DNA of 42,988 bases from positions 1 to 42,988 of IMG/VR virus record IMGVR_UViG_3300030333_002388; one strand, written 5' to 3'. The notes beneath the pieces are model-generated. The model ran no database searches, was not told the origin of the DNA, and was given only the letters and a program-made list of their open reading frames with translations. Source of the stretch: a virus. A program made the translations under genes and the position numbers. Position 1 is the first letter of the stretch; every line of letters begins with the position of its first letter. This document shows positions 22,043-40,308 of this stretch, piece by piece.

Positions 22043-22333
22043 TTAGCAATCCTTGACAAAGATACCATCGATCATTTTTCCCTTTCTATCTTTTATATCA
22101 TTGTAAGCGAGTTCTAAACAATCCTCTATAGTAGTTTCATTTCGCGCAGCAATATTAATAAGAATTACCAAACAATCTCCTATATCATCTCTTACATCTT
22201 GTTGTTTACATACACTATCAGATAGTTCTCCTACTTCTTGTATTAGTTTTAGAACTTGATCTTTATCTGTAGCGCCATCTATAAGGTTTCTATCCTCATG
22301 CCATTCTACTACTTTATTTATTAAATCTATCAA
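22043..22333 (-). CDS. MazG-like nucleotide pyrophosphohydrolase
   Basis: 96 residues. Metal-binding helices: LKLIQEVGELSDSV (ExxE(D)) and DDIGDCLVILINI (ExxD-like), the all-alpha NTP-PPase pattern. Start codon is TTG at 22333, supported by GGAG 7 nt upstream and by the need for the N-terminal WHEDRNL helix; it overlaps the methyltransferase stop. Phage MazG proteins hydrolyse NTPs/dNTPs or affect alarmone levels; the substrate is not deducible. Confidence 0.87.
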   Translation of the reverse strand: MIDLINKVVEWHEDRNLIDGATDKDQVLKLIQEVGELSDSVCKQQDVRDDIGDCLVILINIAARNETTIEDCLELAYNDIKDRKGKMIDGIFVKDC

Positions 22334-23177
22334 TTTTCTTCTCCATTAATTTTACATATTCTTTGCTAAGTTCTATCATTATAGAATCTCTGCCGTGTTT
22401 TTCTGCAACTATTCCCGTTGTACCAGTTCCTGCAAATGGGTCTAAAACTATTCCATTTTTAGGACTTCCTGCTAATATACAGGGTTCTACTAATTTTTGA
22501 GGGTATGTTGCAAAATGTCCCTCTTTTGCACTTGTATCACTAGGTATTGTCCAAACTGACCTTTTATTTTTTAAAGATTTTCCATCTATACAGATTTCTT
22601 TAATTGCTTCATAATCAAAATGATACTTACGAGATTTACTAAATAAGAATAAATACTCATGTGCTTTTGTACATCTATCTTTTGCACTTTCTGGTAGTGG
22701 ATTTGGTTTATGCCAAATAATATCCTGTCTAAGATACCACCCACTATCTTGCATCGCTAGTGCAAATCTCCATGGCATACCTAGTAGTTCTTTCTTATAA
22801 TAACTATCTCCTATATTGATCCACAGAGTTCCTGTGTTTTTCATTGTTCTTTTTACTTCTCTAAATACACCAACTAACTTTTTTATGAACTGATCGGGTG
22901 TATCTTCTAGTCCTATTTGATTGTCTTTGCCTCTTATTGCTCCACACTTTTTACATTTATACTTGAATATCTCTTTTGGTCTATTCACAGAGCTTCCTAT
23001 AGCATGCGCTCTAAAATCATCTCCTTGATGACTACAATTTGGATCGCCACCAATCCATTCTGCTGTACCATAATCTCTAAGATTCCAGTAGGGCGGACTG
23101 GTAATACAACAATCAATAGTATTTCTTTTTATTGATTGTAATGCTTTTCTACAATCTGAATTTATTATCTTAATCAT
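22314..23177 (-). CDS. DNA methyltransferase (amino-methyltransferase, beta-class order)
   Basis: 287 residues from the ATG at 23177; an in-frame extension upstream would run through the tRNA and is rejected. Catalytic motif IV CCITSPPYWNLRDYG comes first (near residue 27) and the AdoMet-binding motif I DPFAGTGTTG near the C-terminus, the beta-class order. A CxxC/CxxC zinc-ribbon-like insert (YKCKKCGAIRG with an upstream Cys) may recognise DNA. SPPY fits N4-cytosine or N6-adenine methylation. No restriction enzyme is visible, so it is likely an orphan protecting phage DNA. No Shine-Dalgarno; the ATG is 5 nt after the tRNA CCA. Confidence 0.9.
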   Translation of the reverse strand: MIKIINSDCRKALQSIKRNTIDCCITSPPYWNLRDYGTAEWIGGDPNCSHQGDDFRAHAIGSSVNRPKEIFKYKCKKCGAIRGKDNQIGLEDTPDQFIKKLVGVFREVKRTMKNTGTLWINIGDSYYKKELLGMPWRFALAMQDSGWYLRQDIIWHKPNPLPESAKDRCTKAHEYLFLFSKSRKYHFDYEAIKEICIDGKSLKNKRSVWTIPSDTSAKEGHFATYPQKLVEPCILAGSPKNGIVLDPFAGTGTTGIVAEKHGRDSIMIELSKEYVKLMEKKIDRFNK

Positions 23178-23182
23178 AATAC

Positions 23183-23258
23183 TGGTGGAGCTGAGAGGAC
23201 TCGAACCTCCGACCCTCTGCGTGCAAAGCAGATGCTCTCCCAACTGAGCTACAGCCCC
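23183..23258 (-). tRNA. tRNA-Ala (anticodon TGC)
   Basis: 76 nt with encoded CCA. Acceptor stem GGGGCTG/CAGCTCC, D-arm AGCTCAGTTGGGAGAGC, anticodon loop TTTGCAC on stem TCTGC/GCAGA, T-arm GGAGG-TTCGAGT-CCTCT. Its first base is the last base of the upstream helicase stop codon, and the methyltransferase ATG begins 5 nt after CCA, so it must be cut from a polycistronic mRNA. Confidence 0.98.
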
Positions 23259-33186: not shown

Positions 33187-33573
33187 TTATTCTATATCGA
33201 ATGTTTTAGGTTTCATTTCATCAGGAATATTCTTTACTATATTAATAGTAAGAATACCATCTTTAAGTCTTACGGAATCTACTTCCATATACTCTCCGAG
33301 TATAAACTGCCTATCAAATCCCTTTGAACTAAATCCTTTATGCAAGTAGCTTTCGCCCTCTTGCAACCAGTCAGTAGGTTTTGCTTTGATTAGCAACTTA
33401 TTTCCATCTTGTTCTACACTTACATCATCACGATGAAAGCCTGGAACTGCAATCTCTACACTCACAGATTCGTCATCTGTTCTTACCACATTGTATCGTG
33501 GATAATTTGTATCGACTGTTTCAAACATAGCTGGGTCAAACCCTAGAAAATGTCTTAACATTGTATTAGTCAT
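33187..33573 (-). CDS. hsp20: Small heat-shock protein (Hsp20/IbpA type)
   Basis: 128 residues with an alpha-crystallin domain: YNVVRTDDESVSVEIAVPGFHRDDVSVEQDGNKL, the (A)GF-type end of strand 5, then GFSSKGFDRQFILGEYMEVDSVRLKDGILTINI, containing the L-K-D-G-I-L-T-I motif. Known role: ATP-independent holdase; also common in cyanophages, possibly for virion assembly. The 5' leader is structured (see hairpin at 33570). First gene of the transcript that runs into the lysis genes. Confidence 0.94.
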   Translation of the reverse strand: MTNTMLRHFLGFDPAMFETVDTNYPRYNVVRTDDESVSVEIAVPGFHRDDVSVEQDGNKLLIKAKPTDWLQEGESYLHKGFSSKGFDRQFILGEYMEVDSVRLKDGILTINIVKNIPDEMKPKTFDIE

Positions 33574-35870: not shown

Positions 35871-36073
35871 TATATAGCTACCTTTACTATCTTGTAACCT
35901 CGTCTTACTACTTCGTTTCTGCACTTCTGCTTTACTTTTGGTTTGCCGTTGTCATTGTTAATATACTTCATCAGTTCCTCCAGTGGAGTCTGCTTAATGT
36001 AGTGCTTATAAACAGTTGTTTTCTTTGTTGCTCTGTTATACACTCTCTCGTCTTGTTTAAATTTTATTGGCAT
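35870..36073 (-). CDS. Hypothetical basic protein
   Basis: 67 residues, Lys/Arg-rich: KFKQDERVYNRATKKTTVYKHYIKQTPLEELMKYIN, then KPKVKQKCRNEVVRRGYKIVKVAI. Alternating charged and hydrophobic residues suggest a small alpha/beta fold. Preceded by GGAG. Unknown. Confidence 0.62.
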   Translation of the reverse strand: MPIKFKQDERVYNRATKKTTVYKHYIKQTPLEELMKYINNDNGKPKVKQKCRNEVVRRGYKIVKVAI

Positions 36074-36680: not shown

Positions 36681-36875
36681 TTATTTGCCTAAATCTTTTA
36701 AATCCCTTTCGGTTATATACTGGTAGCCACCCTTGTTAAAGATAGGGGCAGACTGCTGTTTGCGTTGTTCAGTAAGTCGTTTTGCAACTTCATCTCCACA
36801 CTCCAAACATAGTTTACCCACTACTCTAACCCTAGCTGGGCTTACCTCGTTACTACATTTTCTACATCTTGCCAC
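36681..36875 (-). CDS. Small zinc-ribbon protein
   Basis: 64 residues; GTG start behind a perfect AGGAGG located inside the upstream gene. Two CxxC knuckles (CRKC and CLECG, residues 4-27) bind zinc, followed by a charged helix and YITERDLKDLGK. Resembles small zinc-ribbon proteins of cyanophages. Possible nucleic-acid or ribosome factor. Confidence 0.72.
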   Translation of the reverse strand: MARCRKCSNEVSPARVRVVGKLCLECGDEVAKRLTEQRKQQSAPIFNKGGYQYITERDLKDLGK

Positions 36876-37185
36876 TACTAAATCCTCCTAAAGTGTTATT
36901 TGGATTAGCTATGTGATTCTCTCTAAGGTAGTCAGCCACTAAATCTTCTAAGCATTGATACTCTTCGCAAAGAGCCTGACTATCAGTATCTATTGCATAC
37001 TCCATAGCGTCTTTCCATTCTTGCCTAGAAATTTTACTTAGACTTCGCACTCCTATATCATGGTGTGTTAAATCTTCCTCTAAGCTCTGCATATCAAGTA
37101 AGCCATAGATTATACAGTTGTGCTTTTTCTCTAAAAGAGATATAGCTTGATGCAAATCTAGTTCGTTTATATTTTCATTTTTCAT
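36862..37185 (-). CDS. Hypothetical protein, first gene of the mini-gene operon
   Basis: 107 residues from the ATG at 37185 (MKNENINELDLHQAI); a longer in-frame version would start inside the promoter. Helical, acidic; ends ANPNNTLGGFSSGKM. Leaderless: the ATG is 7 nt from the -10 box. Not recognised. Confidence 0.68.
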   Translation of the reverse strand: MKNENINELDLHQAISLLEKKHNCIIYGLLDMQSLEEDLTHHDIGVRSLSKISRQEWKDAMEYAIDTDSQALCEEYQCLEDLVADYLRENHIANPNNTLGGFSSGKM

Positions 37186-37192
37186 ACTATAT

Positions 37193-37221
37193 ATTATACT
37201 CGAAATTTGAATGTCAGTCAA
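37193..37221 (-). promoter_or_regulatory. Promoter of the ten-gene mini-gene operon (leaderless)
   Basis: Minus strand TTGACT, 17-bp spacer, TATAAT; +1 expected at the ATG 37185. The operon runs to the terminator at 34714. Confidence 0.88.
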
Positions 37222-37275: not shown

Positions 37276-37310
37276 AAAAGAAAAAGCCTCTCACAACGAG
37301 AGGCTCAAAA
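37276..37310 (-). terminator. Terminator of the large non-coding RNA
   Basis: Eight-base-pair stem AGCCTCTC/GAGAGGCT with a 5-nt loop; on the minus strand followed by TTTTTC-TTTTC. It precedes the mini-gene operon promoter. Confidence 0.9.
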
Positions 37311-38506
37311 ACTATTTTGATTAAGTAACGGCTTACTGCCTATAGGAATTCAGCCGAGCAACCTTTAGAGCGTCTACTAATCTCACGATATCACTAGTCG
37401 AATCGATTTCCTACTTCGCTTTTCAACTACAATCGGAGTGCGTTGCGTGACCAGAGCCGAACATTGTGCAAGACTATAGGTCTTGTCGTAGTTTACTTCA
37501 CTTTTCAGTCCTTTAAGAAGGAATCAATGGGAGAGCAAGCAGGTTTCCCGAGACAAAGTCCTTGTTACCCTGCTAACAACTCTCAATGGTGGCAGTTTCG
37601 TAGATTACTGCCAACTAACAAGTGCCTGACATTGTCCTTGCGTAACGGATAGTTTCATAGCTTACTATCAACTTGCGAGATTGTTCAAGGTCATAACCTA
37701 CGCTTTTCATTACCTACTAACCCCATTTCCGACTACCCAGCGATTAGTGTACTGCATAGAAGAGAAGCAAACAGTAACGATTCGTCCATGAGGAATAGTT
37801 CCCATGAGGCTAGCCGTTCTAGTGAGCCGTTCTTATGGTAGTTCTCACGCCTGATGCTTCTTGCTACTGGGCTTCTGCCGTGCCGTAGGACTCGCCTCTG
37901 ATAACTCCACGCCTTTGGTAAACACGCCTTTGGATATTTAAGTTATTCTGTCTTATAGCCTACGAATCATTATTCAGTAGCTTTGCCACTCTGACATTTC
38001 GAGCTGATCGCTTCCCGCGTAGAACGCGACTGCGTAGAACTCGACAATCATATGAGTGGGCTTCTCAAGAGCCTCTGATAACAAACCAATGGGCTTGTCT
38101 AAGGGAGGCATTTTGCTTACTTGCGTTGGGTATCCTAAGAAGAACATAGCCTTGGCTTTCAGCAGTGTTAGGGGGCGAGAGCTAGTAATGGGTTATTGAC
38201 CTGCCCACTTCTGAGGGCTTACTACGGCACTATCACAGCGTGTGCAACAGACCTCTAACTCTCTCGCCTAAGATTGTTAAGGCTAGTTTTACCATTTTTC
38301 GTGTCGTTCCAAAAATGAAAACTAGCAAAAGCATAAAAAGAACAGCGTAACTCCCACCAACCTCTCCATGACTGTCCACCACTAGCTGTGGGCTAGAACA
38401 AGTCTACACCCTTTCGGCTAGAACAAGCAATCACACTTATTGTTACACTCTCACGAAACTCTTTGGTTTCGCCTCTTGGGTTTCTTTTGTGTTTTCCCAA
38501 TTCAAT
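37281..38506 (-). ncRNA. Large ornate structured non-coding RNA (~1.2 kb), GOLLD/ROOL-like candidate
   Basis: Bounded by a perfect TTGACA-17-TATAAT promoter and a strong terminator on the same strand. No plausible gene lies inside: the longest frames lack ribosome sites and are interrupted. It is clearly richer in G+C than its surroundings. Many helices can be read: GCTAGTTTT/AAAACTAGC extended by CATTTTT/AAAAATG (38282-38326); GGCGAGAG/CTCTCGCC (38174 with 38261) closing a ~95-nt domain; CGAAAC/GTTTCG near the 5' end; CGCG-TTCTA-CGCG. A hairpin type recurs with loop AANCTAYGAA on arms GATAGT/ACTATC and GGCAGT/ACTGCC. Size and style recall GOLLD and ROOL phage RNAs, but I cannot assign a family without covariance searches. 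Confidence 0.78.
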
Positions 38507-38512
38507 ATATAT

Positions 38513-38541
38513 ATTATATACTGGCTTTTGTATTTTGTCAA
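38513..38541 (-). promoter_or_regulatory. Perfect consensus promoter of the large ncRNA
   Basis: Minus strand TTGACA, 17-bp spacer, TATAAT, with A/T-rich DNA upstream. Predicted +1 near 38506. Confidence 0.92.
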
Positions 38542-38568: not shown

Positions 38569-38682
38569 TTAATCGTCCTTGAATAAGTTAATTATCGGGT
38601 CGATTAATAGGTAGTAGATAAACAAGCCTATGATTATAACTGCCCACAGGCTTGTCATTAGTTCTACCATGAAGTTTTCCAC
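38569..38682 (-). CDS. 37-residue membrane peptide
   Basis: A GTG start shares bases with the preceding TAG; an alternative ATG lies at 38670. One membrane span (SLWAVIIIGLFIYYLLI), then DPIINLFKDD. Co-transcribed with the HTH gene upstream. The ncRNA promoter lies directly behind it. Confidence 0.55.
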   Translation of the reverse strand: MENFMVELMTSLWAVIIIGLFIYYLLIDPIINLFKDD

Positions 38683-39005
38683 TAGACCACTTCGCTTAGT
38701 CTTTGAACTAGGTTTTTGAGGTCTGCTTTTGTTGCTTTGCTAACAGTAGCGATTGAGCTATTGTCGATACCAAGCATTGTTGCAATCTCAGCTACGAGTT
38801 CGTCTTTTCTTACAACAGGCTCACCAGTTTTAGTTGTTCTAGGTTGTGCTTTGTAAACACCCTCTCTTGACAACTTAGCGATGATGCTTCTAGTTGTTTT
38901 TCCAAATTCCTGTGCTAGTGAAGCTACAGTATCTAGGTTTGGTTGTTGTTGGTATTCTTCTACCATTTGAGAAACCATCTCGTCTGTATAATTTTTACTT
39001 GCCAT
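38682..39005 (-). CDS. HTH-family phage regulator (YTDEM type)
   Basis: 107 residues from MASKNYTDEM at 39005 (GGAG site); the longer frame would include the promoter. Tri-helical unit YTDEMVSQMVEEYQQQPNLDTVASLAQEFGKTTRSIIAKLSREGVYK, linker RTTKTGEPVVRKDELV, helical C-terminal domain LVQRLSEVV. Very similar proteins recur in marine myophages and pelagiphages as I recall. Likely a transcription regulator or nucleoid-type protein. Confidence 0.82.
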   Translation of the reverse strand: MASKNYTDEMVSQMVEEYQQQPNLDTVASLAQEFGKTTRSIIAKLSREGVYKAQPRTTKTGEPVVRKDELVAEIATMLGIDNSSIATVSKATKADLKNLVQRLSEVV

Positions 39006-39029: not shown

Positions 39030-39058
39030 ATTATAAACGGGCTTTTGAATTTTGTCAA
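39030..39058 (-). promoter_or_regulatory. Consensus promoter for the HTH gene
   Basis: Minus strand TTGACA, 17-bp spacer, TATAAT; ~18-nt leader with GGAG. Confidence 0.9.
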
Positions 39059-39688: not shown

Positions 39689-39741
39689 ATATACATGTTT
39701 TCGGAAATGGTTCTGAAAACGAAAGAAAGAAGGAGTTTATG

Positions 39742-39900
39742 ATGGCAAAAGAAGTCGAGAAAAAAACAAGAGTAAGCAAGAAAGCTCTTCTAAGAAAACT
39801 TGCAGAGAAAACCAACAGACCTTTGTTTCACTTTGATAGCTTAGCTAGAAGCAATGTTGAAACAATCAAATGGGTTCTCGAGCTAGTAGACGGTCAGTAA
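39742..39900 (+). CDS. 52-residue basic protein
   Basis: Preceded by AGAAGGAG; two consecutive ATGs at 39739 and 39742, either may be used. A Lys/Arg-rich helix (KEVEKKTRVSKKALLRKLAEKTNRP), then LFHFDSLARSNVETIKWVLELVDGQ. Helical; possibly DNA-binding, no family recognised. The transcript continues ~200 nt beyond the stop to a strong terminator. Confidence 0.68.
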   Translation: MAKEVEKKTRVSKKALLRKLAEKTNRPLFHFDSLARSNVETIKWVLELVDGQ

Positions 39901-40069
39901 TTGATAGTTTACAGCCCTTCGGAGTGTAGGCTACTCTGTCCCTCAAAGCCAGCCGAGCAGGAGATGGACGCCCTGCAAAGCGACCCTCACGGGTTGAACC
40001 TAATCTGGGCAAAGCTGTGAATATATCGCCACCTTGCAAGACGCTGTGTGGCGAGTGATGATGGTCAAG
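39901..40069 (+). other. Structured 3' region of the small-gene transcript
   Basis: No gene. Hairpins GCAGG/CCTGC (39957-39976) and CGCCA/TGGCG (40027-40053) lie between the stop codon and the DnaA-like repeats. G+C-rich compared with surroundings. Possible 3'-UTR-derived small RNA or origin sequence. Confidence 0.4.
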
Positions 40070-40101
40070 TGTGCATAACCCTGTGGATAACCTGTGGATA
40101 T
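40070..40101. repeat. Three DnaA-box-like repeats
   Basis: TGTGCATAA, TGTGGATAA and TGTGGATAT at 40070, 40082 and 40093, spaced 12 and 11 bp, all in one orientation. The middle one is the exact complement of the consensus DnaA box TTATCCACA; the others differ by one base. Next to a terminator and AT-rich repeats, this suggests an origin or DnaA-responsive site. Confidence 0.62.
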
Positions 40102-40103
40102 GG

Positions 40104-40131
40104 GGCCCCGCTCAAGGCGGGGTCTTTTTTT
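40104..40131 (+). terminator. Strong intrinsic terminator
   Basis: CCCCGC/GCGGGG stem with a 5-nt loop, extended by flanking GG/TC pairs, followed by a T-run (TCTTTTTTT). Confidence 0.92.
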
Positions 40132-40142
40132 ATCAATAATAC

Positions 40143-40171
40143 TTGACAAGCCCTGATTATTATGATATAAT
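40143..40171 (+). promoter_or_regulatory. Plus-strand consensus promoter without a downstream gene
   Basis: TTGACA, 17-bp spacer, TATAAT. No credible gene follows up to 40650. Confidence 0.85.
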
Positions 40172-40177
40172 AGACTA

Positions 40178-40308
40178 GGGGAAACCCAGTCGCGGGCGCG
40201 CCGGCTGAAAAGTAGACCAGTTTAGAACTTCAACTTAGCACTTAGGCGCTAACGCATCACTTTTCAACTTACCACTTTAGCACTTTGGCGCGCTGGCGCG
40301 CTCTAAAT
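40178..40308 (+). other. GC-rich gene-free stretch with TTAGCACTTAGGCGC repeats
   Basis: Contains GGGCGCGCCGGC, CTTAGCACTTAGGCGCT and TTTAGCACTTTGGCGCGCTGGCGCGC, related to the stretch at 39384-39452. No reading frame with a ribosome site. Confidence 0.45.

Follow-up and report, generated by a model that had tools for sequence, protein, structure and literature searches.

The giant ornate RNAs of phages rank with the largest structured RNAs described, and as far as we know no function has yet been established for any of them. Two of these RNAs, GOLLD and ROOL, form RNA-only cages, as seen for the cryo-EM nanocage (PMC12286853). ROOL is a large non-coding RNA (ncRNA) of phages and prophages whose function is unassigned and which has been reported to be very abundant (PMC12286853; PMC5643018). 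In the lytic Vibrio phage ICP1, an ncRNA of about 0.8 kb, located between ORF139 and ORF140 in a 1-kb gap devoid of ORFs, has been reported to exceed all other phage transcripts in abundance (PMC7567579), and the lytic phage K produces two long and abundant ncRNAs, lnc001 and lnc002, near its tRNAs (PMC9241854). OLE RNA is likewise large and ornate, but it is bacterial and not phage-encoded. The locus analysed here appears to encode an RNA of this large ornate phage kind, which belongs to none of the described families with which it was compared. By analogy, its closest functional counterparts would be those that are both abundant and non-coding, that is, the ICP1 RNA, the phage K lncRNAs and GOLLD/ROOL.

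The window, meaning the whole stretch of DNA that was analysed, is an IMG/VR virus record of 42,988 bases. The nearest relatives of its DNA polymerase are found in T5-group phages (44% identity), and it probably represents part of a T5-like genome, taking into account that the contigs of its relatives reach up to 105 kb. The original prediction had placed in this window a very large structured ncRNA with its own promoter and terminator (Table 1), a proposal that is supported by covariation, by the lack of coding potential and by synteny in 128 loci. The best overall explanation, to which we assign a probability of roughly 55%, is a giant structured ncRNA of a group of T5-like marine phages, working as a folded RNA and not as an mRNA. 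That a real structured ncRNA exists at this place is almost certain.

Table 1. Location of the RNA unit, its structural elements and its flanking features in the window.
Feature	Position	Strand	Remarks
Giant structured ncRNA, ~1.23 kb	37281..38506	(-)	without conserved ORF; syntenic homologues; covariation
Sigma70-type promoter of the giant RNA, TTGACA-17-TATAAT	38513..38541	(-)	12/12 consensus positions matched
Intrinsic terminator, GAGCCTCTC-GTT-GTGAGAGGCTT and T-rich tail	37284..37306	(-)	
Promoter of the next operon, TTGACT-17-TATAAT	37193..37221	(-)	11/12; kept in relatives; separates the operon from the RNA unit
Upstream syntenic gene, D5-like DNA-binding protein (PHROG 323)	38682..39002	(-)	synteny anchor
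Downstream syntenic gene, function unassigned	36862..37221	(-)	
5' conserved block, ~210 nt	38161..38371	(-)	91-94% identical in L004 and L006, near-identical in L003
Hairpin with GCTAGTTTT/AAAACTAGC stem	38282..38326	(-)	conserved, not varying
Long-range helix, GGCGAGAG (38268-38261) with CTCTCGCC (38181-38174)	38174..38268	(-)	conserved, little variation
Module A hairpin, GTGAG[AACTACCATAAGAACGG]CTCAC	37822..37848	(-)	17-nt invariant loop; stem fully covaries over subfamilies
3' domain (covariance model R2)	37329..37510	(-)	45 consensus pairs, 15 doubly compensated
3' hairpin, CGGCT-GAA-UUCC[UAUA]GGC-AGUA-AGCCG	37329..37356	(-)	loop-E-like GAA/AGUA internal loop

The predicted perfect promoter and the terminator on the same strand were both confirmed, the latter being the sole terminator-like site in the 36-40 kb region scanned, and transcription is predicted to start near position 38506. 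Raised G+C had also been noticed, and it indeed amounts to 42-48% within the RNA unit against about 36% in the flanks. Between positions 36000 and 40000 there are 22 sigma70-like promoters, compared with 8.2 expected by shuffling, and two of them are perfect, the second one being located at 39058..39030. Perfect promoters are thus no rarity in this genome, and near-consensus host promoters are what this phage group uses.

Relatives were gathered through two IMG/VR scans that made use of the flanking proteins, the family survey being anchored on the upstream gene, whose product matches PHROG 323, a D5-like regulator. A common layout was found in 128 of the 134 candidate loci, in which promoter(s), an ORF-poor stretch and a further promoter follow one another; the loci counted as family members are those with an ORF-poor stretch of 0.3-1.6 kb between the D5-like gene promoter(s) and the promoter of the next operon. 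A promoter corresponding to that of the window is present in nearly all relatives. Dereplication at 95% of the RNAs of the 128 loci gave 83 distinct RNAs, 278-1,592 nt in length (median 1,007 nt), which fall into 35 sequence subfamilies. Within the first set, blastn at E < 1e-5 links 70 of the 71 distinct RNAs, homology over the 35 subfamilies being drawn from synteny, pairwise links and common modules, and not from one global alignment. In the closest relatives (L002-L007 and L082-L086) the RNA occupies the same genomic place, and four blocks, corresponding to RNA positions 136-346, 618-685, 804-871 and 923-1198, are kept with 82-98% identity, the stretches between them being deleted, replaced or unrelated. 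When the RNAs of the window and of L119 were compared by blastn with 50,697 phage records, no match was found, and the syntenic gene likewise has no relative among these records. Some loci (L151, L142, L347, L348 and L358) contain, at the corresponding place, very short units (278-437 nt) that possibly replace the giant RNA or represent its minimal forms; the shortest ones, L347 and L348 (278-308 nt), might be replacements and not homologues.

The original prediction also proposed that homologues should be collected and covariation examined, and helices of this RNA were found to covary strongly. The clearest case is module A, whose loop AACTACCATAAGAACGG is nearly invariant over subfamilies and is closed by a G-C pair, on stems that are wholly different in sequence and are nevertheless complementary in all 20 instances (5-8 bp). 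This module is present in the window, in 17 further distinct members and in two fragments. In an alignment of 17 sequences, both sides change in six of the seven pairs, doubly changed cells number 41 (14.8 when shuffled), and the covariation score is 0.879 against 0.238 in shuffled alignments and 0.04-0.24 in slid controls, a score reached by none of 500 shuffles; it has to be borne in mind that these covariation alignments are small, that shuffle counts are not probabilities, and that RNAalifold is biased towards structures with standard pairs. Module A was picked without any such program, and its score collapses in the slid controls. In L082 and L086, which belong to the subfamily of the window, the two ends of the loop carry G...A in place of A...G, which may represent a swapped non-canonical pair. 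An exact IMG/VR-wide scan with the 17-nt core of this module retrieved 20 contigs, 19 of which carry it either within this RNA unit or on a truncated fragment of the unit (L331, L337, L338), the exception being L324, where neither promoter nor stem accompanies it. The 19-nt motif gave a single match in 257 Gb from 84,980 prokaryote genomes, approximately the chance expectation, and none of note in cultured phages. Outside this RNA, module A is essentially absent; within the RNAs that carry it, the complement of its loop is not enriched.

Module B (GGAAGC..TGCTTATAA) behaves like module A, with a score of 0.583 against 0.165. Its pattern has 70 matches in IMG/VR, which is estimated to be about chance and was not taken as evidence of spread. 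In subfamily 0, a domain of 160 nt comprises 25 consensus pairs, 18 of them doubly compensated, with 99.4% of cells paired. The model built on it (R1) retrieves eight members that belong to other subfamilies, each of them in sense orientation, plus a marginal one; those of the matches that were compared with the promoter coordinates lie within the RNA unit. This core domain is absent from the RNA of the window, and a single common fold for the whole family does not appear to be supported.

The window itself shows covariation in its 3' domain (about 180 nt), which scores 0.349 against 0.155 in shuffled alignments, with slid controls of at most 0.06. The corresponding model R2 recovers two held-out members, L084 (E 3e-7) and L085 (E 0.008), in both cases inside their RNAs; apart from these, 907 kb of sequence yielded only the window, sequences nearly identical to training members, and two marginal matches (E 0.1-0.3). 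The loop tetramer of the 3' hairpin is palindromic in all three variants seen (UAUA, CAUG and CUAG), as would suit a self-kissing contact. However, with three variants this is only a hint, because palindromic loops are not enriched in the family as a whole (24 observed and 21.3 shuffled). Matches to the 3' hairpin pattern outside the known subfamily-1 contigs were rejected as further instances, as they look like coding matches and have no stem. As for the two helices originally read as compensating, GCTAGTTTT/AAAACTAGC and GGCGAGAG/CTCTCGCC, both are present, but they hardly vary in the closest relatives and are thus not themselves compensating. The MFE z-scores (-1.15 sense, -2.36 antisense) are uninformative and give the transcribed strand no advantage.

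Taken together, comparison of the relatives demonstrates, at the level of sequence, a transcript-sized unit without coding potential that keeps its place in the genome, shows helices covarying on its transcribed strand and is built up from modules with invariant hairpin loops on freely varying stems. The position of module A ranges from about 30% to 81% of the RNA length, measured from the RNA start, and among the 10 RNAs that hold both modules A precedes B in six and B precedes A in four. Subfamilies thus have common modules in different orders, and we therefore describe the family as a modular, permuting giant RNA, which makes it a case of module shuffling within a non-coding RNA. A bolder proposal, which we put forward tentatively, is that it constitutes a novel class of giant phage RNAs, the architecture of which evolves in the way that protein domain architecture does, and that the RNA assembles into a large RNA-only or ribonucleoprotein (RNP) particle during infection. 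In such a class, hairpin modules with invariant loops would be gained, lost and re-ordered, and the place, the promoter, the terminator and the size would be kept.

With regard to how this RNA might work, its own strong host-type promoter would drive its synthesis and its own terminator would end it, and it would accumulate to a high level during infection. Loops that are conserved on freely varying stems are a usual mark of tertiary contacts or of sites for proteins. The folded RNA may act as a scaffold that places its invariant loops (those of module A, module B and the loop-E-like 3' hairpin) in space, and that either builds a homo-oligomer of RNA only, in the manner of GOLLD and ROOL, or binds a host or phage protein or the ribosome. 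A scaffold or RNP of some kind is rather probable, and the RNA-only homo-oligomer in particular is a more speculative option. An abundant scaffold, possibly self-assembling, is the favoured form of the proposal because of the analogy with the GOLLD/ROOL cages (PMC12286853) and with the abundant ICP1 RNA (PMC7567579).

The same invariant loops could be read in a different way, with the RNA being a sponge or protein decoy in which module A (AACUACCAUAAGAACGG) and module B (GGAAGC..UGCUUAUAA) bind a host regulator, a part of the ribosome or a defence protein, and the large body merely displays and stabilises these sites. Invariant loops on free stems are indeed what protein-binding hairpins should present, and the shifts of position and order of the modules among relatives are easier to reconcile with independent sites than with one fixed fold. 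However, a sponge should carry repeated copies of its sites, whereas modules A and B are single-copy elements, RNAs with multiple copies were hardly ever found, and many members lack these modules, which makes this reading doubtful.

Returning to the structured ncRNA, its relation to the described families has to be considered. The original prediction left open a new member or a new family, and it is the new family that is supported: searches with Rfam 15 at gathering and relaxed E-values, for the window and more than 20 relatives, returned only tRNAs and sub-threshold noise, with no match to OLE, to ROOL or to GOLLD, including the conserved 3' core of the latter. One could imagine a GOLLD or ROOL so diverged that the Rfam models fail to detect it, given the likenesses with GOLLD, which is also phage-encoded, ornate and of about 0.8-1 kb, with tRNAs sometimes in or beside the unit and with a conserved 3' and a variable 5' part, an arrangement seen here in the subfamily of the window. 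Three of the 83 distinct RNAs contain a tRNA, in a manner reminiscent of GOLLD (tRNA-Glu in L084; tRNA-Met in L342 and L349), and in L061 and L052 tRNAs lie just upstream of the unit. Nevertheless, the absence of matches in the window and in the relatives scanned renders such an origin quite improbable. The present RNAs differ from GOLLD in the permuted module order among relatives, and from ROOL in their motifs and their size (the solved ROOL has about 0.66 kb, against a median of 1.0 and up to 1.6 kb here). The ICP1 ncRNA, similar in being a long transcript from an ORF-less gap, was rejected as a homologue, since nothing detectable is held in common: models R1 and R2 do not match it, blastn returns only chance-level pieces, and modules A and B are absent. 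The phage K lncRNAs, which were likened by description, belong to another phage group (Staphylococcus Kayvirus). In the open-access literature, which was the scope of our search, no description of this RNA was found.

It could also be argued that the conserved element is the DNA itself, as an origin of replication or a packaging or recombination site whose folding would be incidental. Its intergenic and conserved position, its repeat-like modules and the proximity of another conserved non-coding stretch with DnaA-box-like sequences would be in agreement with this. However, the unit is equipped with a promoter and a terminator of its own, both pointing in the same direction, its transcribed strand is on average A-rich and purine-rich (A 32%, T 26%), and its compensatory pairs include many G-U and hardly any A-C on that strand, in a proportion by our own count of about 35:0 in the subfamily-0 domain and about 40:2 in the 3' domain of the window, an excess that is supportive only, as folding programs favour G-U. 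Composition and G-U excess together fit selection acting at the RNA level on the transcribed strand, and a DNA-level site is considered very improbable.

That the region is a long 5' leader or encodes a set of small peptides is hardly credible, since the longest frames (57 aa sense, 69 aa antisense) do not persist in relatives, in keeping with the lack of a credible gene noted originally; the sense ATG frame of 57 aa (38147-37974) was ruled out as a gene because it has no relatives in IMG/VR or PHROGs and its segment is deleted from L004/L006, where the frame of 49 aa is shifted by a single inserted base amid DNA of about 93% identity, and the terminator and the next promoter separate the RNA from the downstream gene.

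The giant structured RNA favoured here would thus represent an independent further family, with at least 83 distinct members, whose many short conserved modules and extreme divergence provide dense comparative data. The family suggests a dependence of marine T5-like phages on an RNA of this kind. Members of compact size (0.3-0.6 kb), situated at the corresponding position, may permit tests of structure and function for which the 1.2-kb form is unsuited.

Other elements were observed in the window. On the plus strand, a second conserved non-coding element (39905-40240) lies downstream of a conserved 53-aa frame (39739-39900) and has a strong terminator and two DnaA-box-like TGTGGATA sequences (40082-40100). 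It has no Rfam match, is 80-90% identical in L004, L082 and L085, and is possibly a second ncRNA or an origin. In addition, according to Pfam, the phage encodes an HSP20-family protein (33187-33573) and an N6/N4 DNA methylase (22314-23243).
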